NCBI GenBank assembly: GCA_017481875.1
Contig: JAFUOP010000048.1
Location: forward strand, 1 to 60,200
Source: Bacteroidaceae bacterium
Lineage (GTDB): Bacteria > Bacteroidota > Bacteroidia > Bacteroidales > Bacteroidaceae
Direction of reading: 5' to 3'
Length of the DNA: 60,200 nucleotides
Shown here: positions 9,171-46,440 of the stretch, one piece after another
How the letters are laid out: each line of letters starts with the position of its first letter
Numbering within the stretch: position 1 is the stretch's first letter
Notes under the pieces: generated by a model
Database searches by the model: none
What the model saw: only the letters and a program-made list of their open reading frames with translations
What the model was told of the DNA's origin: nothing
Translations under genes and position numbers: made by a program

Positions 9171-9374
9171 GGGATTGGCTTCGCTTTGCTCGCCCATCCC
9201 TTTTTGTGGTTCCTTTGCAAGAAACAAGAACGCTGTCGCGTTTCTTCTAATTTCCTTTTCTCGTCAGCCGGTAAGCGAGCTTCCCGCTGCCGTGTTTGTT
9301 CGGGATTGGCTTCGCTTTGCTCGCCCATCCCTTTTTGTGGTTCCTTTGCAAGAAACAAGAACGCTGTCGCGTTT
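9171..9374. repeat. Pair of 73-bp exact direct repeats
   Basis: Bases 9171-9243 and 9302-9374 are identical (73 bp, offset 131). Between and after them lie related, partly matching GC-richer bits (around 9270-9290 and 9400-9420). The region has open frames on both strands but no plausible start or family, so I treat it as an intergenic repeat. It ends at the terminator next to attL. Confidence 0.8.
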
Positions 9375-9431
9375 TTCTTGTTTTGTTTTTTACTCGCTTT
9401 GTGAGCAAGCTCCCAAGCGGGCATAAAACAA

Positions 9432-9458
9432 AACAAGAGAACTTTCAGTTCTCTTGTT
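9432..9458 (-). terminator. Hairpin next to attL, probable original tRNA-Ser terminator
   Basis: Perfect 10-bp arms (9432-9441 and 9449-9458) around a 7-nt loop, followed on the minus strand by a T-rich run. It lies 4 bases outside the attL core on the chromosomal side. Before integration it would have stood just downstream of the tRNA-Ser 3' end. Confidence 0.7.
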
Positions 9459-9462
9459 TCTT

Positions 9463-9477
9463 GCGGAGAGGGAGGGA
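9463..9477. other. attL core
   Basis: 15-bp copy of the tRNA-Ser 3' end sequence (GCGGAGAGGGAGGGA), identical to 46487-46501. To its left is chromosomal DNA with the old tRNA terminator, to its right phage DNA. Confidence 0.9.
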
Positions 9478-9597
9478 GTATTTTGTAATTTTTCCCTCTT
9501 ATCCTTGCGGAGCAACTCCTTGCAATTCAATGCAGTATAAAAAGCGACCATTGCATCTTTTGTCGCCCTATGTCCGTATCTCGTCCTTAGGGATTGT

Positions 9598-9966
9598 TTA
9601 TTTTTTGCTCTCTAACTGCTTCATCAGCATTTCGTTGACTGCTTCGAGGAGTGCAATCCTCTTGTCTTTTTCCTCTATCAATGCCTGTAAGTTCGCTGTT
9701 TTTTCTTCAAGTGCGCCTACTGAATAGCAGGCAACATTGTTGCTGCTTCCCACAACGCTGATGTGTGGTAATTTATTCCTTATAAAGAATGTGTCCATAG
9801 ATACTCCGAAGAAATCCGCCACTTGTTCAAGGCGACTTGCTTTTACGTCTCTATCGACTAATGGGCGCAATCCTCCATCGCCGTCAAGCCCTAATGCTTC
9901 TAAAAGGTCTTTAGCACGCAAGTTGCGTTCTTTTAGCAGTGCTTTAATTATGTCTCCATTATACAT
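9598..9966 (-). CDS. Putative phage repressor (short XRE-type HTH plus coiled coil)
   Basis: 122 residues. The N-terminal 57 residues have the spacing of a helix-turn-helix domain (IIKALLKERNLRAKDLLEAL ... ASRLEQVADFFGVSMDTFF). The C-terminal third (about 80-118) is a charged coiled coil, likely for dimerisation. It is the only leftward gene at the left end and is divergent from the early operon, the position of a lysogeny repressor. There is no LexA/CI-type peptidase domain, so RecA-driven self-cleavage is not expected. Specific function is inferred from position. Confidence 0.7.
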   Translation of the reverse strand: MYNGDIIKALLKERNLRAKDLLEALGLDGDGGLRPLVDRDVKASRLEQVADFFGVSMDTFFIRNKLPHISVVGSSNNVACYSVGALEEKTANLQALIEEKDKRIALLEAVNEMLMKQLESKK

Positions 9967-9969
9967 ATT

Positions 9970-10068
9970 CCGTCAAATTAAGAATAATTAACAAAACAAA
10001 CCCGTCAATAATGACGGATATAATATTTTTTTATCATACTTTTGTAGCATCAAAAATATGATATTTTT
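9970..10068. promoter_or_regulatory. Divergent control region (candidate phage switch)
   Basis: Between repressor and early operon: a CCGTCA half-site (9970-9975), an inverted repeat CCGTCA-ATAA-TGACGG (10002-10017), a rightward -7 box TACTTTTG (10037-10044), and a palindrome AAAAATAT-G-ATATTTTT (10052-10068) just past the expected start point. Two kinds of palindrome suggest two DNA-binding proteins. The AT-rich palindrome is related to sites at 16982-17014. Confidence 0.5.
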
Positions 10069-10097
10069 TATTGTCTAACAAATAAATCTTCTTGATT

Positions 10098-10280
10098 ATG
10101 GCAGAAATGGTTATTAAGAACTACTACGACGGACTAACAACCGAGGAGAGGACGGATTTCATTTACAGCGCTTGCAAGCTGTGTGATATGAGTATTCCAA
10201 CCTTTTATAAGAAGTTGCGTACCGACACATTCAAAAAGAGTGAAGAGACACTTATTGTGGAAAAATTGATATGTGCATAA
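10098..10280 (+). CDS. Small early phage protein, possible HTH regulator
   Basis: 60 residues from the ATG at 10098 (a TTG two codons earlier is less likely). The middle (TDFIYSACKLCDMSIPTFYKKL) reads like a short recognition-helix region of the kind that selects DNA, and the gene is first in the rightward early operon, the place of a Cro- or Cox-like factor. No firm family match by eye. The next gene starts one base after its stop codon. Confidence 0.6.
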   Translation: MAEMVIKNYYDGLTTEERTDFIYSACKLCDMSIPTFYKKLRTDTFKKSEETLIVEKLICA

Positions 10281-10281
10281 T

Positions 10282-10827
10282 ATGATTGCCAATATTGAAT
10301 TTTACACAACACCGGATGGTGATGTTTGTTGTAAACCTCTTGAAGGACCAATGTTTATCCTCGACGAGAGTCGCAAAGAACTCATCGCAGAAATGATGGT
10401 GGCCATCAAAGAACTTTATCCGGGAGCCTTTGCGGCACTCTCGGAACTCTACTCCAAAAGTTCGCTAAACCAGAACTACTATCATTATAAGATAGTACAT
10501 AGGTTTATTCGCTGCAACTTTGGAGAATACGATGCTTTGTCAATGGATGTTGGCGGTTCCGGTCAATTCCGTATGGAAGATGTCAGGTGTCCGTTGCGCG
10601 GAGAGTGCAAATTTGACAGGTTAATCTGTCACGCACGACTGGAAACTAAACTTAGCGAAAGGGAACAGCAGGTGGCAAATCTTCTCGGTAAAGGATACTC
10701 GACTGAAGAGATAGGGGAAGAACTGCATATATCTCCCTACACCGTAAAGCGACACATTGCTAACATCAAGACCAGGCTTAAACTTACACACACAAATCAG
10801 ATAATCGCAAAATTTTCTAAGGAATGA
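10282..10827 (+). CDS. LuxR-type HTH transcription regulator
   Basis: 181 residues from the ATG at 10282 (a GTG at 10273 would add three). The last 65 residues are a clear LuxR/FixJ HTH: SEREQQVANLLGKGYSTEEIGEEL, then ISPYTVKRHIANI. The N-terminal 115 residues have no recognisable receiver or autoinducer domain; a Cys pair in CPLRGEC and another in DRLICH may bind metal. Second gene of the early operon, so a likely activator of later phage genes. It overlaps the next gene by 4 nt. Confidence 0.8.
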   Translation: MIANIEFYTTPDGDVCCKPLEGPMFILDESRKELIAEMMVAIKELYPGAFAALSELYSKSSLNQNYYHYKIVHRFIRCNFGEYDALSMDVGGSGQFRMEDVRCPLRGECKFDRLICHARLETKLSEREQQVANLLGKGYSTEEIGEELHISPYTVKRHIANIKTRLKLTHTNQIIAKFSKE

Positions 10828-39070: not shown

Positions 39071-39562
39071 ATGGAACTTTTTAATGCTGAGGAATACTTC
39101 AGGAATATTGCCACGACAAACAAGTTGTGTGTCGATGAAGGATTCCACTTTTGTACCTGTTCCGGACTCGAGAACCTGGAGGAAGCCATTGACCAGTTCA
39201 GAAAGGTTAGCAATTTCTTTATCTTCGATGATACGACTGAAGGGCAGGAGTTCAGAGGTGCCGGTGGTGGGTACTACCACAAACGTCTGTTCACTGTGTC
39301 GCTGATGCGCCGTTACCGTCTTGATGATATGGCAGACAGGGCTGAACAGCTCGCTATTTGTCGTAAGCTGTTCAAGCAGATTGTCTCAAAACTCTTGAGG
39401 GATAAGGAGCAAACAGAGAAACTTACATATTTGAAGACGGACAACATCCTTTACAGGGAGTATGACAGAGCTATGTTCAGTGGGTGCACCGGGCTGTTTT
39501 TCATAGTGGAGTGTTCGGAACCTGAAAACTTATGCTATAATAAAGAAGAATGGCTGATGTAG
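39071..39562 (+). CDS. Phage structural protein of unknown role
   Basis: 163 residues, alpha/beta, with LFNAEEYFRNIATTNKL and SLMRRYRLDDMADRAEQLA. Position between connectors and the gp10-like gene suggests a head-tail completion factor. Overlaps the next gene by 13 nt. Confidence 0.6.
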   Translation: MELFNAEEYFRNIATTNKLCVDEGFHFCTCSGLENLEEAIDQFRKVSNFFIFDDTTEGQEFRGAGGGYYHKRLFTVSLMRRYRLDDMADRAEQLAICRKLFKQIVSKLLRDKEQTEKLTYLKTDNILYREYDRAMFSGCTGLFFIVECSEPENLCYNKEEWLM

Positions 39563-39975
39563 AAAAACAAACGCAAAAGGAGTACATCGATGGATGGACC
39601 AAAATGATGATGACTATCTGGAAAGAGAAAATCATCAGGTATGGCATTGTCGATACCGGTCATCTACATGGTAGTTTCAGCGGTGATCCGGATGATAATT
39701 CTGCTTTGCTCAAGTTTGTTTCTTATGGTATTTATCAAGCTATGGGTGTTGGCAACGGGTATAAAAGAGAAAATGGCGGTGATTTGCATTTCCTCGATCC
39801 TGAATATCGCAAGAAACACAAGCTCGGCAAACCTCGCAAGCGCAGGAATTGGTACAGCCCGAAATTATATTCTTCTGTCAAGGTGCTGCAGCGTGCAATG
39901 GCTGAACTATATGCTCACGATGCAGTCAATACAGTTTGCGATGCGCTGGATAATGCTCGTTCTGCGATAAAATAA
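39550..39975 (+). CDS. Head-tail joining / tail completion protein (HK97 gp10-like)
   Basis: 141 residues. IIRYGIVDTGHLHGSFS and the basic NWYSPKLYSS resemble the start and end of HK97 gp10-type neck proteins. Position before the fibre gene is as expected. Call based on pattern, moderate trust. Confidence 0.55.
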   Translation: MADVEKQTQKEYIDGWTKMMMTIWKEKIIRYGIVDTGHLHGSFSGDPDDNSALLKFVSYGIYQAMGVGNGYKRENGGDLHFLDPEYRKKHKLGKPRKRRNWYSPKLYSSVKVLQRAMAELYAHDAVNTVCDALDNARSAIK

Positions 39976-40033
39976 TGTCTTTTTATCTGCTCATCTTTTC
40001 ACTTACTATTGTGGAAACTTTTAATTTATAATT

Positions 40034-42802
40034 ATGAGCAGATTTAATGAACTATTACCGCTTGCAGCGCAAGTGAGGGATGCGACAGAAGAGGGTGAGA
40101 ATACAGGTAAACGTGTCGGAGATCTTTTTGTCAATATTATTCAGAAAACAGAATCCTATTTAACCGAGAATGACGAAGACAAGCGGAACACGAAGAATGA
40201 ATTAATTAAACGTATCCAAGGAAAAAGCGATGATAGCAATCCTTTGACCGACCCGTTTAAGTATATCAGCGCAAATAATAGCGTTGAGCTTGTTAATGTC
40301 CTTAACAATACCTTAAGCAGCGGTCGATACAGGATACGTCTCGGCAATGTTCTGCTCGATTTAGATGTGTTTGAAACAGGCGCGAATACTACGCAATTAC
40401 TACGCGGCTTTGTTACGCCCACAAACGAGGGGTGGACTACTTCTCTCCAATACAACGAGCACCTCCGTACCCATAAAGATGCTTGGGGTGCATGGGAGGT
40501 TATTTCGGGAAAGAGCGTAAAAGAGTTGGTAGATAGTAATACCGCCTACCGCGGTAATTACATAGGTAATTACCCATTTTCGCAAAAAGCACTTGCTAAA
40601 AATGTTGATAAGCTAATTATTACGGGTTATATAGATTTTACATATAACGAAAAACTTGCATATATGTTTTCAGTACTATCAAAAGAAAAACTTAAACTTT
40701 CGTTATATAGCAAGCCAAAAGATGTGTTAAGAAAGGATATGTCAGAACCTCCAAAATTTATTTGTGGGTTCACGGCCTCTAAACTTGACAATTCACCATA
40801 CTATTTTGCGAAGTTTGGTAACTCATGGCTTATTTTAGACTTGGATAAAGTTACTGAATATGATTCGTTATACGACTATGACGGTATAGCATTATCTCCA
40901 TCACTATTCAAAAACGGAGGCATCCCCTTTATGATAACTGAATTATCTGATAGTATAGGTACTATTAACGATAGTATAGGTACTATTAACGATAGTATAG
41001 ACGAATTAACTAAACCTATTTTTGAAAATAAAAAAACACCGTATAACCAATTAGTTCAAGAGTTATGGGTTGCCCCAACCTATATTCGTGATGGAGTTTG
41101 TCGATTTAAGACTTATAATGGTAAATTGTATCTGAGAATTTACCCTACAGAAGGAGATACGACTGTTGCTATATGGAATAGCACAGCAGATATTCCTGAC
41201 GAAACTTATACTAAAACGCCTATTTCTTTAACGGTTAGTACCTCTAACGATGCGACAGTTCCCAAAGGTACAGAAGTTGCCTTTATTGTGCTTAATGATA
41301 TAACCAAAGCAGATAATAGTACAGCACAGGGTGAGAAGGTAAACATCTCCTTTGCTTCGGTAAGAACAAACTCTCCTATCATCAATGAGTATCTTGCAAG
41401 TAAAGAACATACAGAGGCCAAAGAAAGTATTGAGAGTATTTCTACTGACCTTGAAGAGGTCAAAGAAAGTATTGAGAGTATTGACATAATAGATTATTCC
41501 TCAATAATTACGGCACCTGACATTTTCGAGGTTATTGCAGGAGACACCTTGCAAATATTCAAAAGGAGCATCGTGCAATGTTTTAGCCCTTATAAATATG
41601 ACATAAGTTTTTCCTGTGCTGTAGGTAAGGACTATCCTCGTTATTTTACTTATGCTACTAATTTTACTGATGAGGCCAGAACGATTCCTTTAACTATTAC
41701 AGTAAGGAGTGATAATGGTAATATTATATGCCAAAAGGAATCATCGATTAATGTTATTGCGCGACCTGCGGTATCTTCTATTAACAGTAAAAAAATACTG
41801 ATTGTAGGAGCATCATCTATAGAATCTGGACATATTAGTTCCGAACTAAAACGTAGAATTGTAAGTTCCGATGGAGAAACAGTAGAAGGCATGCGAAATA
41901 AGCCATCTAATCCAGCCGGGTTAGGTGCAACAAATATCGAATTTGTCGGGAGAAAGACGGTGAATGGAGTAAATCAAGAGGCTACAGGAGGTTGGTCTTG
42001 GAAGATGTATTCAGGCGAAGGAGTTAAGGCGTATCGATTTTACGTGAGTGATGTATCTCAGTTGTATATGGGCGATAAATATACTTCTAATGGACTGACT
42101 TTTACAATTACAGAGATTAATGTTACCGACGGTAGTGGTAATATTCGTTGCACATATACAGGAAGTGGTACTATAAGCGAAAGCGGAATATTGACACGTA
42201 GCAATGGCGAAGGTGATGCAACTATTACATACAACAACTATATTGATGAGAAGTTTAATCCATTCTATAATAATAGCAAACTCGATTTTAAGAACTACGC
42301 AGACTTGTATTGCAAAAACTCTATAGATATTCTTGTGGCTCATTGCGGGGTAAACGATATGTGGGACAAGAATCGTACAGTAGAAGCTGTTGTATCAGAC
42401 ATAAAAACTTTTATTGAATGTTTCCATGCAGATTTCCCCAATTCGAAATTTGTGTTATCAACTTTACCTCTTCCTGATTGTATGGGTGGTATGGGCGCGA
42501 ATTATGGATGCGCACACCATTATTACACGAAAGCCTTGAAGTTTTGGGAATTGGCGGAGGCCTTTAATAAACTATCTGATGATTTAAGTAATTTGACCGA
42601 TAGTGAAGGAAGCAAATGTGTGTACTGCTCGCAGGTATTGCCTGCATTTGATTGCGAATACGGCTATCCGAAAACTGCAACTTCTGTTAATAATCGTGTA
42701 AGTACCACTGAGGACCTGGGAACCAATGGTGTTCATCCAAGTCAGGAAGGAAGTAAAATGGTAGCGGATAGCTTATTTGCAACAATAGTTAAATTATTAT
42801 AA
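40034..42802 (+). CDS. Tail fibre with C-terminal SGNH-type esterase
   Basis: 922 residues. N-terminal 180 residues (MSRFNELLPLAAQVRDATEEG) are the likely tail-binding part. Next, a shaft with repeats DSIGTIN (21-bp units at 40949-40990) and SIESIS. From about residue 585 a GDSL/SGNH hydrolase: block I ILIVGASSIESG (nucleophile Ser about 594), block III CGVNDMW, block V GVHPSQEG with the His about 901; the canonical Asp two before Val-His is Asn here. Such tips deacylate surface glycans during adsorption. The shaft and tip are AT-richer than the N-terminus, and a remnant of a different esterase tail lies right behind the stop. Confidence 0.85.
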   Translation: MSRFNELLPLAAQVRDATEEGENTGKRVGDLFVNIIQKTESYLTENDEDKRNTKNELIKRIQGKSDDSNPLTDPFKYISANNSVELVNVLNNTLSSGRYRIRLGNVLLDLDVFETGANTTQLLRGFVTPTNEGWTTSLQYNEHLRTHKDAWGAWEVISGKSVKELVDSNTAYRGNYIGNYPFSQKALAKNVDKLIITGYIDFTYNEKLAYMFSVLSKEKLKLSLYSKPKDVLRKDMSEPPKFICGFTASKLDNSPYYFAKFGNSWLILDLDKVTEYDSLYDYDGIALSPSLFKNGGIPFMITELSDSIGTINDSIGTINDSIDELTKPIFENKKTPYNQLVQELWVAPTYIRDGVCRFKTYNGKLYLRIYPTEGDTTVAIWNSTADIPDETYTKTPISLTVSTSNDATVPKGTEVAFIVLNDITKADNSTAQGEKVNISFASVRTNSPIINEYLASKEHTEAKESIESISTDLEEVKESIESIDIIDYSSIITAPDIFEVIAGDTLQIFKRSIVQCFSPYKYDISFSCAVGKDYPRYFTYATNFTDEARTIPLTITVRSDNGNIICQKESSINVIARPAVSSINSKKILIVGASSIESGHISSELKRRIVSSDGETVEGMRNKPSNPAGLGATNIEFVGRKTVNGVNQEATGGWSWKMYSGEGVKAYRFYVSDVSQLYMGDKYTSNGLTFTITEINVTDGSGNIRCTYTGSGTISESGILTRSNGEGDATITYNNYIDEKFNPFYNNSKLDFKNYADLYCKNSIDILVAHCGVNDMWDKNRTVEAVVSDIKTFIECFHADFPNSKFVLSTLPLPDCMGGMGANYGCAHHYYTKALKFWELAEAFNKLSDDLSNLTDSEGSKCVYCSQVLPAFDCEYGYPKTATSVNNRVSTTEDLGTNGVHPSQEGSKMVADSLFATIVKLL
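40949..41001 (+). repeat. 21-bp tandem repeat in the fibre shaft
   Basis: Two full units of a 21-bp sequence beginning GATAGTATAGG (40949-40969, 40970-40990) and a partial third. Codes DSIGTIN repeats; copy number could vary fibre length. Confidence 0.85.
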
Positions 42803-42803
42803 C

Positions 42804-42902
42804 GTGAAGTATGCAAGGGATATTGTGCACCCAAACACTGCGGGCTTCAACCAATTTGCCGATGCTATGCTGGGCTATGCGTATGAGCTAATCAATGGAT
42901 AA
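42804..42902 (+). pseudogene. C-terminal fragment of an older SGNH esterase fibre
   Basis: Translates to 32 residues ending in a stop: VKYARDIVHPNTAGFNQFAD and more. DIVHPNTAGFN is a textbook SGNH block V (DxVHP). It begins 1 nt after the stop of the present fibre and is GC-richer. This is the cut-off end of a replaced tip. Confidence 0.75.
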
Positions 42903-42903
42903 T

Positions 42904-43109
42904 ATGATATTAGGAACTCACAACAGCGCAACGGGTGGCAAGCTGCCTTGGCGGCTTCGCCCGCTTGCTTGGGTAATTAATCCCACAAGCAAGTGCCAAG
43001 ATAAGAGCATTGACGAACAGTTACGCGATGGTGTAAAGCTGTTCAACCTGCAAGTGGCCTGAGAGAGAGTACAACTGATCACTTGATGCTTTATTTTTAC
43101 GAATTATGA
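42904..43109 (+). pseudogene. PI-PLC-type phospholipase, middle deleted
   Basis: ATG at 42904, one nt after the esterase stop, opens a 52-residue frame with the PLC X-box signature (ILGTHNSATGGKLPW ... SIDEQLRDGVKLFNLQ), stopping at 43060. Another frame (43065-43109) reads ESTTDHLMLYFYEL and ends with a TGA that overlaps the next ATG (ATGA), as an intact gene end would. So both ends of the gene survive and its body, including most catalytic residues, is gone. Confidence 0.7.
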
Positions 43110-43655
43110 ATTTCCATTTGAACTTGACACAAGATGTAGGCCACGGCGTCACATTGATATTCATCTGCTTTGTCGTGGTGCTTGCCGCGGTGTTGATTGA
43201 CTTGCTTGTGGCGCTCGTTGCCGAGTACAAGATAGGCCATTCGATAGAGAGCCACAAGTTGCGCAAATCGATAACTAAGGTGATATTGTAACAGCGCACT
43301 ACTATATGGTGTTCTCGTCGATGTAATAGGCCTCGCGTTCACGTGGTATGATATACCGTATGCAGCCATCTTGGCGGGCCTTGGCGCCGTACTAATAGAG
43401 GGCAAGGCTTTGCAGTTTCTTGAGAAATTTGTTGCTTCTATGAACAGTTATCTAGGTATGATGATTCATTATCGTACCTACAAGATAAGGCGCAAGGTCT
43501 ATGAAAATACGAACTCTACATGGTGGCAGTATGTTTATATGGCCAATGACTATAAGAAGTTCGTTATTAAAAAGCAATACCGCCCACTTGAAATGGGAAA
43601 GAAGAAAGTAAAAAGCGGAGAATATAAGAAAATCCTTATGCCGGAGCTTTATTGA
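43106..43655 (+). pseudogene. Frameshifted phage membrane (holin-like) protein
   Basis: Frame one (43106-43291) codes 61 residues, MNFHLNLTQDVGHGVTLIF with membrane helix FICFVVVLAAVLIDLLVALVA, and stops at TAA near 43290. Removing one A there restores a seamless frame: KVILYSALLYGVLVDVIGLA, then a second and third helix, joining the frame that runs to 43655. The first part resembles holin-type proteins of Bacteroides phages. The last 70 residues (from about 43450) look unrelated and may be another join. A different holin gene follows, so function may be taken over. Confidence 0.65.
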
Positions 43656-43686
43656 CATTGCTAAAATTTGTCTTTTTACATAGGTT

Positions 43687-43709
43687 TTGCACATTATACA
43701 TTTGTGCAA
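43687..43709 (+). promoter_or_regulatory. Lysis promoter with overlapping palindrome
   Basis: -7 box TACATTTG (43697-43704) lies inside TTGCAC-N11-GTGCAA (43687-43709). 18 nt upstream of the holin ATG. The arrangement suggests a repressor that blocks the lysis operon. Confidence 0.4.
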
Positions 43710-43721
43710 GTAATTTAGCCT

Positions 43722-44198
43722 ATGAAGAAAATGTTTAGACCTATTTTTACGGCTCTTGGCGCACTTCTTGCATTGATCGAGCCGACACTCCCGTACATTA
43801 TTATTTGCACTTTAGCGATTTTCTATGACTGCTACACGGCGTGGCAATTGGACCGTCGTGTCAAGGCGAAGTATGGTGATAAAGCACCAAAGAACTCCGG
43901 TAAGTTCCGCAGTTCCAATGCCGGCAGAGTCATTCATACGCTGATAAAGGTGTATGCTCTCATCATCCTGGCATACTTTATAAACTTATATATAACTTCT
44001 GGAACTGGTATCGATATGACAAAGGTCGTAGCCGGTGCCGTATGTTTCTGGCAATTATGGAGTATTCTCGAGAACGAGAGTTCCTGCAATAATGCAACCT
44101 GGGCAAAGGTAGCACAGAGGGTACTTGTTGACAAGACTGAGAGGCATCTCGATATCGATTTGTCAATGCTTAAAAAAGATAACAATGAAGATAAGTGA
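43722..44198 (+). CDS. Phage holin
   Basis: 158 residues. Hydrophobic segments about 8-35 (possibly two, LGALLALIEPTLPYIIICTLAIFY is split by Pro) and 73-92, then a soluble charged tail. The pattern LPYIIICTLAIFYDCYTAWQ fits toxin-secretion/phage-lysis holin families. It forms the membrane lesion that lets the lysozyme encoded next pass. Overlaps the lysozyme gene by 14 nt. Confidence 0.75.
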   Translation: MKKMFRPIFTALGALLALIEPTLPYIIICTLAIFYDCYTAWQLDRRVKAKYGDKAPKNSGKFRSSNAGRVIHTLIKVYALIILAYFINLYITSGTGIDMTKVVAGAVCFWQLWSILENESSCNNATWAKVAQRVLVDKTERHLDIDLSMLKKDNNEDK

Positions 44199-44637
44199 AT
44201 ATGCAGAAGAGGTTCTGAAAGAACACGAAGGTTTGCGCCTCAAGGCCTATCGATGTTCTAGTGGAGTGCTTACCATTGGTTATGGCCATACAAGAAACGT
44301 AAAGATGGGAGATGTCATAGATAAGGATACGGCCGAAAGATTCTTTGTAGAAGATGTAGAAGCTGTAGAACGGCTTGTCGATAGAGAACCATTCGCCAAA
44401 GATTTGTCGCAAGGCCAATATGATGCTCTTGTCTCGTTTTTATTCAATGTTAAGTATTCATCATATCAAACCTCTACATTGAGGAGAAAAATTATTAACA
44501 ATGTCAATGATGTTACAATACCAGACGAGTTTCGTCGATGGGTGTATGGTACAGACCCCGTGACAAAAAAGAAAATCAAGTTGCCGGGGCTTGTAAAGCG
44601 CCGTGAATGGGAGGCATCAATGTATGAAGACTTGTAA
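44185..44637 (+). CDS. T4-type endolysin (GH24 lysozyme)
   Basis: 150 residues from the ATG at 44185, nested in the end of the holin gene. Lysozyme active site: E15 in EHEGLRLKAY, T30 in VLTIGYGHT; the position of T4 Asp20 is Cys24, giving the known E-8-D/C-5-T pattern with Cys. C-terminus RRWVYGTDPVTKKKIKLPGLVKRREWE is the usual GH24 end (LPGLVxRRxxE). No signal sequence, so release depends on the holin. Confidence 0.92.
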   Translation: MKISEYAEEVLKEHEGLRLKAYRCSSGVLTIGYGHTRNVKMGDVIDKDTAERFFVEDVEAVERLVDREPFAKDLSQGQYDALVSFLFNVKYSSYQTSTLRRKIINNVNDVTIPDEFRRWVYGTDPVTKKKIKLPGLVKRREWEASMYEDL

Positions 44638-45213: not shown

Positions 45214-46362
45214 TTATAAAGCACCGTCAAAATGTTTCGGTTCATTGTGTACCGGGATATCGCGTGAAGAAAGGTATTTATTCGTGGTCGAAACATCGGT
45301 GTGCCTTGCCTGGTCGCGTGCCACAACAATGCCCTCACTGTTGGCGAGGTCTCGAATGCCTGAATCCTTAAGGCTGTAGAACTGGTAAGCCTCCGGCCAC
45401 TTCAATGCTTTGCGTAGTTTGAGCCATTCTCTACGGAAAATCTCGCTTGATGCTCTTTTTTCTGCCGGTTTCATTGACTTACCGAAAAGGTAACAGCCGG
45501 AATGGTGCTCAAATATTTTCAAATCAAGCATCATTCTCACAAGGTTGTCGTTGAGTGCAACCTTGCCGGCTCGTTTGTTCTTGCTTATCTCGGCCGAAAC
45601 ATAAACAGACTGTTCCTTTAGGCTGATGTCTCCAATCTTGATGTTGGAGAGCTCTGTCGGCCTGATGAACGTGTAGTATTCAAACATACAGGCCAAAAGA
45701 AAATAAGGATCCTTTTCGGTCAAGTATGTTTTCAGTTGCTTCAGCGATTCGATGGTTAGAGGTATGCGCTTCTTGGCTGTTTCTTCGACATTCCTTATCT
45801 TTTCGACAGGATTTTCCTTCAGCCAAGCGTGTTCAATGAAGTAGGCCGCCAAAGAACTGCACCAGCCTTTGTAGTTGTTGCGAGTGCGACCTGTGGTCTC
45901 GCGTTCATAATATATATAATCAAGGAAACCGGAAATGAATCCTTTGTCGTACTGATATACATATTTAATAGGTATAGGAAGGCTCGCATTGTACTCGCGC
46001 AGGATATTGACTCTGGACTGATAGCTTTTCTGTGTTTTGTATCGGTCCAGTCGGCTCAAGTATTTTTCATATTTCTCAAGTGCCACATCGAGCAGGGTGT
46101 ATGATGTTGAAGCATTGGCATCCACCCATGGAGACCAGCCTGTACGCAGTAACTTGAGTATCGAGGATATCAGTTCTGCAGCTCGTACACGTCGTTGTGT
46201 CTTGGTTGGGATGTTGTCAAGGGTGTATTTCTTGCGCTTGAGACGGCCTTCGGCTGGATCATAGGCCAAAAAATCGATATACCAGGATTTACCGGTATGT
46301 AATTTAGGGTAAGTGTAACTCTGCAATTCGGCTTGCGAAGAAAGTTTTTTGCGTGAACACAT
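45214..46362 (-). CDS. int: Phage tyrosine integrase
   Basis: 382 residues from the ATG at 46362 (an upstream in-frame ATG at 46395 would add 11). N-terminal arm- and core-binding parts (WYIDFLAYDPAEGRLKRKKY, ALEKYEKYLSRLDRYKT), then the catalytic domain: Arg in FIRPTELSNIKIGDI, YSLKDSGIRDLAN in place of the HxxR box (Lys/Arg retained), ARHTDVSTTNKYL with His and the Tyr nucleophile. It recombines attP with the tRNA-Ser end. Lies 125 bp from attR and reads away from it. Confidence 0.92.
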   Translation of the reverse strand: MCSRKKLSSQAELQSYTYPKLHTGKSWYIDFLAYDPAEGRLKRKKYTLDNIPTKTQRRVRAAELISSILKLLRTGWSPWVDANASTSYTLLDVALEKYEKYLSRLDRYKTQKSYQSRVNILREYNASLPIPIKYVYQYDKGFISGFLDYIYYERETTGRTRNNYKGWCSSLAAYFIEHAWLKENPVEKIRNVEETAKKRIPLTIESLKQLKTYLTEKDPYFLLACMFEYYTFIRPTELSNIKIGDISLKEQSVYVSAEISKNKRAGKVALNDNLVRMMLDLKIFEHHSGCYLFGKSMKPAEKRASSEIFRREWLKLRKALKWPEAYQFYSLKDSGIRDLANSEGIVVARDQARHTDVSTTNKYLSSRDIPVHNEPKHFDGAL

Positions 46363-46440
46363 TTTTTTTACATTTTTCGGCGATGAAAAATGCAAATGGT
46401 TATACTTAGGTTGTCCGTAATTTGTCCGAGTTTTAATTGA

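Follow-up and report, generated by a model that had tools for sequence, protein, structure and literature searches.

Positions 42804–43655 of the window, the whole 60,200-nucleotide stretch of DNA analysed here, probably hold, in a row, the remains of host-recognition modules lost one after another by a prophage lineage of a gut bacterium. The odds that we attach to this explanation rest on gene order and homology. Each leftover piece has an intact relative; the whole row occurs in no single relative. The row lies between the present tail fibre gene and a conserved block of phage backbone, which resumes at about position 43662 and continues through the integrase with 82% nucleotide identity to the prophage of the relative G004. 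The features are as follows.

40034..42802, plus strand: present tail fibre gene, 922 codons (open reading frame; identical copy on contig C15)
40034..40555, plus strand: conserved fibre start (residues 4–87, 38% identity to the G024 fibre; residues 37–155, 28% to a G007 fibre-like protein)
41732..42802, plus strand: SGNH-like tip of the present fibre (homology to the tip of the C18 gene; sub-cut-off Pfam GDSL match)
42804..42902, plus strand: last 32 codons of an older fibre-type gene, SGNH-ended (match the end of the C18 gene)
42904..43062, plus strand: head (codons 1–52) of a PI-PLC-like gene (amino acid identity 85% to L080, 81% to L081, and 90% to L060, all intact relatives)
43062..43106, plus strand: probable tail of the same PI-PLC-like gene past an internal deletion (tblastn, L060 residues 183–197, 60%, E 0.005)
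43106..43400, plus strand: holin relic, broken by frameshift (G022 holin residues 7–63 at 44% and 69–102 at 56%, in two frames)
43398..43655, plus strand: last ~85 codons of a DGR-type reverse transcriptase (79% amino acid identity to residues 368–452 of the G004 reverse transcriptase; PHROG 1423, E 7e-4)
43722..44198, plus strand: resident holin-like gene of the conserved backbone (inside the 82% block shared with the G004 prophage; weak PHROG holin match, E 0.066)
44185..44637, plus strand: phage lysozyme (Pfam Phage_lysozyme, E 8e-34 for the open reading frame that opens at 44125; the homologous 150-residue reading in G004 begins at the MKISEYAE codon)
45214..46395, minus strand: prophage integrase (Pfam Phage_integrase, E 1e-11)

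A first-pass annotation of this DNA had drawn the feature as ending at 42902. The fibre (40034–42802) and the piece behind it are indeed present, but the leftovers continue to 43655.

The window spans the entire contig C38. The draft assembly to which it belongs has 48 contigs, totals 2.0 Mb, and is 76% complete. Contig C15 of the same assembly contains C38 nearly whole (51,030 bases at 99.998% identity and 9,390 bases at 99.94%), and the two differ at about 9.2–9.4 kb. The existence of two prophages, suggested by the second copy of the fibre gene on C15, was rejected; we read C15 and C38 as near-identical, redundant contigs of one assembly. Their sole sizeable difference over the shared stretch falls at 9171–9389 of the window, where the copies of an imperfect repeat of about 90–130 bp differ. 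A draft assembly of metagenome type with redundant contigs might contain chimeric junctions. However, C15 and C38 have the same junctions, though they possibly share reads, and the order of the relics agrees with the natural gene order in relatives; we regard a chimera as very improbable.

Probable remnants of displaced modules and their intact relatives

Of the two fragments that follow the 32-codon piece, the first is the head of a PI-PLC-like gene and the second probably its tail. The tail match, which covers the last 15 codons, was reported for L060 only, of the three relatives L080, L081, and L060. An intact PI-PLC-like relative (G022) matched no Pfam family at an E-value of 0.1. In a model built from ten sequences, the 22 best PDB matches found by Foldseek were all PI-PLC with probabilities up to 0.99, but these fold matches are weak (best E 9e-3, none at 0.001, TM below 0.5, model pLDDT 70). 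The nine named records with a PI-PLC-like relative comprise six Bacteroidaceae, two Bacteroidales, and one Muribaculaceae, mostly from ruminant-gut assemblies. The holin relic matches the G022 holin in two segments (43115–43285 and 43299–43400), and the G022 protein itself passes the Pfam cut-off for Phage_holin_4_1 (32.1 versus 22.2 bits). Fibre, PI-PLC-like gene, and holin stand in this order in G022 (L054). In IMG/VR locus L060, the PI-PLC-like gene comes directly after a fibre end that looks SGNH-like by eye, and no holin was seen immediately downstream of the gene.

PI-PLC-like genes were also observed on chromosomes. A cluster of a small fibre-like open reading frame (by eye), a glycosyltransferase, and a PI-PLC-like gene is present in G000, G014, and G010 (L048:8155–9940, L053:1827–3611, and L066:162–1946), the glycosyltransferase in L048 being of family 2 by Pfam. 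PI-PLC-like proteins with an apparent signal peptide by eye lie in chromosomal surroundings at L072:1327–2076 and L070:1375–2076. The PI-PLC-like family seems to be common to phages and hosts.

The reverse transcriptase relic adjoins the conserved backbone block, which is the position of the reverse transcriptase in G004 and G037; the full-length G004 protein matches RVT_1 (Pfam) and phrog_1423. In these two relatives and in IMG/VR loci L092 and L093, a like anchor starts a fibre of 1803–2194 codons that is followed by two proteins, a small protein, and the reverse transcriptase. The two proteins behind the G004 fibre are of the phrog_4245/Lcl_C type, one of them above the Pfam cut-off. A template-like repeat (TR), which sits before or at the start of the reverse transcriptase frame, pairs with a repeat (VR) that ends the second variable protein. 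Mismatches between the repeats fall at TR adenines in 12 of 14 cases in G004, 12 of 13 in G037, 12 of 12 in L092, and 13 of 19 in L093. TR/VR differences located mainly at TR adenines are the hallmark of a DGR. These four relatives carry a DGR at this place, as judged by the reverse transcriptase and the adenine-directed TR/VR differences. Within the span read, a reverse transcriptase was visible in only two of the eight IMG/VR anchor loci (L092 and L093) and in none of the other six; the DGR is therefore one state among several. A search for an intact reverse transcriptase with TR/VR in the window phage yielded only the ~85 reverse transcriptase codons, and the TR regions of the four relatives had no match in positions 39501–44000 of the window. 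DGRs are described for Bacteroides phages (PMC6199706). The four relatives of the window phage resemble those phages in their reverse transcriptase and adenine-directed TR/VR pairs, whereas the window phage retains the end of the reverse transcriptase only.

These findings suggest a model in which three states followed one another. The ancestor would have carried a long fibre and a DGR, like G004, G037, L092, and L093. An SGNH-ended fibre, a PI-PLC-like gene, and a second holin would then have displaced the DGR, of which the end of the reverse transcriptase remained. Finally, the present fibre would have taken over, either because its distal part was imported or because the second of two tandem fibres was lost. 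This step would have left 32 codons of the old SGNH-ended gene, and the PI-PLC-like gene and the extra holin would have decayed. We infer the order of events from position. The GC content of the pieces (32-codon piece, 46.5%; PI-PLC head, 50.9%; holin relic, 48.1%; reverse transcriptase relic, 37.1%; distal fibre, 36.2%) neither separates nor dates the layers cleanly. The intermediate state, with an anchor fibre, an SGNH fibre ending in the piece, and an intact PI-PLC-like gene, was found in no genome. Alternatively, the entire row could have been imported in an already decayed form. If successive loss of modules is correct, the locus documents how a hypermutating receptor system was abandoned by a phage lineage in favour of enzyme tips, which were changed in their turn. 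Such a history is relevant to the way in which temperate phages keep up with changing capsules.

The present fibre and the piece behind its stop codon

Codons 1–37 of the present fibre share 65% identity with the fibre starts of G004 and G037. We take the conserved region, 40034–40555, to be a virion-anchor type start joined to a knob-like domain. BLAST homology ends at residue 87 in the comparison with the G024 fibre and at residue 155 in that with the G007 protein. The distal part of the fibre had been called AT-richer than its start in the first-pass annotation. GC content does drop from 44.0% to 36.2% at the best change point (40555, near codon 174), but the shift is only borderline because 17 of 300 codon shuffles reached the same likelihood gain.

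The same annotation had assigned the fibre an SGNH end of its own, a claim that holds in part. Residues 567–922 are homologous to the SGNH tip of the C18 gene (24% over 399 columns, E 5e-11) and also match the receptor-binding protein of a Lactococcus phage (22.5%, E 4e-3). However, the Pfam GDSL score of 15.9 bits is under the curated cut-off of 23.6. The motif of SGNH block V is DxxH; the C18 tip has DIVH at this place and the present tip NGVH, the alignment placing another Asp four residues earlier. A single-sequence structure model of the present tip was discarded at a pLDDT of 36. SGNH esterase fibres, including gp63.1 of E. coli phage G7C and fibres of Klebsiella prophages, are treated in PMC13123978, with O-deacetylation of surface polysaccharide shown or proposed. 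In those fibres the SGNH domain ends the protein, as the SGNH-like tip does in the present one; the present tip, a putative esterase, differs from the C18 tip in block V as described above. By analogy with the SGNH fibres of other phages, the present fibre would presumably bind, and may deacetylate, surface polysaccharide.

Relatives of the distal fibre proved scarce. Residues 171–922 matched only their own genome among 295 genomes of the order. The full fibre protein had no tblastn match in a phage collection at an E-value of 1e-3, 8 kb of DNA around the fibre had no match in that collection, and neither the fibre nor the 141-codon gene upstream of it found one in a viral contig collection. 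Among the repeats around the fibre, none was taken for a site-specific switch.

The 32-codon piece begins one base past the fibre stop and in a different frame. Positions 42804–42886 agree with the end of the C18 gene in 82 of 83 bases (E about 2e-36 to 2e-35), and the similarity breaks off abruptly at both sides of the matched stretch. When positions 42795–43720 were searched against 44 genomes of the genus, C18 alone, apart from the redundant contigs, matched the piece strongly. The C18 gene ends in an SGNH domain that passes the Pfam Lipase_GDSL cut-off (30.0 versus 23.6 bits), and the near-identity therefore confirms, at the level of sequence, that the piece is the end of a second SGNH-ended fibre-type protein and not a product of chance. 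In this respect the first-pass annotation was right. It had also anticipated a related prophage whose fibre ends with the piece; none was found, and the match is to a gene in a sugar/capsule cluster.

The frame of the piece is open and begins with GTG, as expected of a conserved small gene or of one half of a working two-piece arrangement. Relatives with the piece as a separate gene, which the first-pass annotation had named as evidence against its own reading, were not found. The DNA search of the 44 genus genomes, in which at most 11 candidates were scored per genome, returned C18 only and no separate-gene copy in the 43 others. A search of 399 family genomes with the tip protein returned nothing beyond C18 and the window except two weak matches (26%) that stop short of the piece, and likewise no separate copy in the 398 others. 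An exact-pattern scan of two collections, from which records very near the window may be absent, found none. A family-wide DNA search also found none, a weak negative in that at most two candidates were scored per genome and C18 itself was missed. Moreover, broken genes come right after the piece. We consider a small working gene extremely improbable. As the end of a displaced fibre-type gene, the piece would be the newest of the leftovers behind the fibre.

Two routes lead to this last step. In one, a new SGNH tip with its own stop replaced the distal part of a single fibre gene and spared the last 32 codons. The new and old tips are both of the SGNH type, and IMG/VR locus L098 joins an anchor and an SGNH-looking tip (by eye) within one gene of 393 codons. 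In addition, the GC change near codon 174 lies past both ends of BLAST homology. On the other hand, the GC shift is borderline, and fibres in general combine a conserved start with a variable tip. Furthermore, none of the inspected anchor fibres (G004, G024, G037, and eight IMG/VR loci, a minority of the anchor places found) lies directly before a PI-PLC-like gene. This route falls just short of being probable. In the other, the present fibre stayed as it was, and all but the last 32 codons of an SGNH-ended second fibre behind it were deleted. Tandem fibres exist in G024 (L049), which also has the closest 141-codon upstream gene found (77% to that of the window), and in L060, where the second fibre precedes the PI-PLC-like gene. 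In G024, the first fibre occupies 9270–10523 and the second starts at 10526, only 2 nt after the stop of the anchor fibre; loss of a tandem fibre therefore explains the piece about equally well. Such a deletion has to begin at most one base from the fibre stop, however, and the start of the second fibre left no visible trace. The first fibre of G024 (417 codons) is also without an SGNH-looking end by eye. We hold this route to be a substantial possibility that stays somewhat short of probable. The single base between the fibre stop and the piece is compatible with both.

The first-pass annotation had proposed that the tip was swapped by recombination, a change of receptor caught in the sequence. 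The end of another SGNH-ended gene was left behind, as this proposal has it, but exchange within the same gene is not established, tandem loss being about equal. A change of receptor is likewise no more than possible. Exchange of receptor-binding tips among tailed phages is modular and well known. The window conforms to it in its conserved virion-anchor start, variable enzymatic tip, and leftovers at the joint. It differs in that leftovers of several displaced modules stand in a row and in that the old tip end has its closest match in a sugar/capsule-cluster gene rather than in a recognised prophage. The layering of the leftovers adds a clear new case to the known exchange of fibre tips.

The C18 gene and a family of fibre-like genes beside sugar genes

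The C18 gene is an intact gene of 858 codons on the minus strand (L047:9864–12440) in the same assembly as the window. Its residues 683–858 match the receptor-binding proteins of three Lactococcus phages (24–25%, best E 1e-6). The neighbours, which lie on the opposite strand, belong to the epimerase, WecG, and hexapeptide transferase families (Pfam). A search for phage structural genes around it found these sugar genes and no match to 13 proteins of the window phage, a test that covers the window phage only and is insensitive to others (it gave zero on L052 and L054, presumed prophages). The anchor start is absent from the C18 gene; within its genome, the anchor profile (E 1e-4) matches only the C15 and C38 copies of the fibre. 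The C18 gene is outside any recognised prophage. Near-identity between the prophage leftover and the C18 tip amid unrelated flanks suggests, from this single case, a recent exchange that may have run in either direction. The match also suggests that the chromosome serves as a pool of tips, in which case a tip would be genetically linked to a capsule type.

The C18 gene belongs to a family whose members have similar starts:

L047:9864–12440 (C18), L143, L146, L147, L166–L172, and L176–L179: fibre-like genes of the family

The first 165 residues of C18 matched at 18 places, spread over 17 of the 44 genomes of the genus, with 49–59% identity in six others and 28–40% in the remaining eleven. In a family-wide sample of 181 genomes that included part of the genus, eight had a match, all of them in this genus. 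At least one neighbour from a sugar/capsule gene set was present in 15 of the 18 places; all 51 of these neighbours lie on the opposite strand. No such neighbour was seen at the three remaining places, where the stretches measure 3.1, 3.6, and 7.3 kb. Pfam searches of selected neighbours identified nine group-1 glycosyltransferases and two Wzi proteins, two others expected to be Wzi being unmatched. Control stretches had a sugar/capsule neighbour in 6 of 24 cases, a rough comparison in that contig C15 alone supplied 11 of the 24, several were taken from PI-PLC-like loci, and two contigs were, judging by length, counted twice (as L052/L081 and as L053/L083). The gene set was partly taken from the test loci, and some matches are therefore of genes to themselves (the one match of G032 is its own Wzi).

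The tips of these genes differ among the five of 18 places tested with Pfam: GDSL in C18, Lipase_GDSL_2 in G031, DUF4886 in G010, and GDPD in G022, with a GDSL match under the cut-off in G021. In a limited survey of titles and abstract starts on fibre genes and capsule loci, none described fibre-like genes from the capsule clusters of the group; the capsule-linked family may be new. One guess is that its members are enzymes that act on the cell's own polysaccharide. It is tempting to speculate that capsule clusters of this Bacteroidaceae genus hold resident fibre-like genes with exchangeable tips (SGNH, GDPD, and DUF4886), that prophages trade these tips, and that the 83-base near-identity is a trace of such trade; we regard this as unlikely. 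If true, host-range tips would travel along with the capsule type on which they act.

Two members showed further features. The G043 locus L176 contains an open reading frame that looks like a terminase by eye. In G007, two tandem fibre-like genes of 481 and 1760 codons lie beside a WecG-like gene on the opposite strand (L147:1240–7970), and no phage genes were seen in the 17.5 kb fetched.
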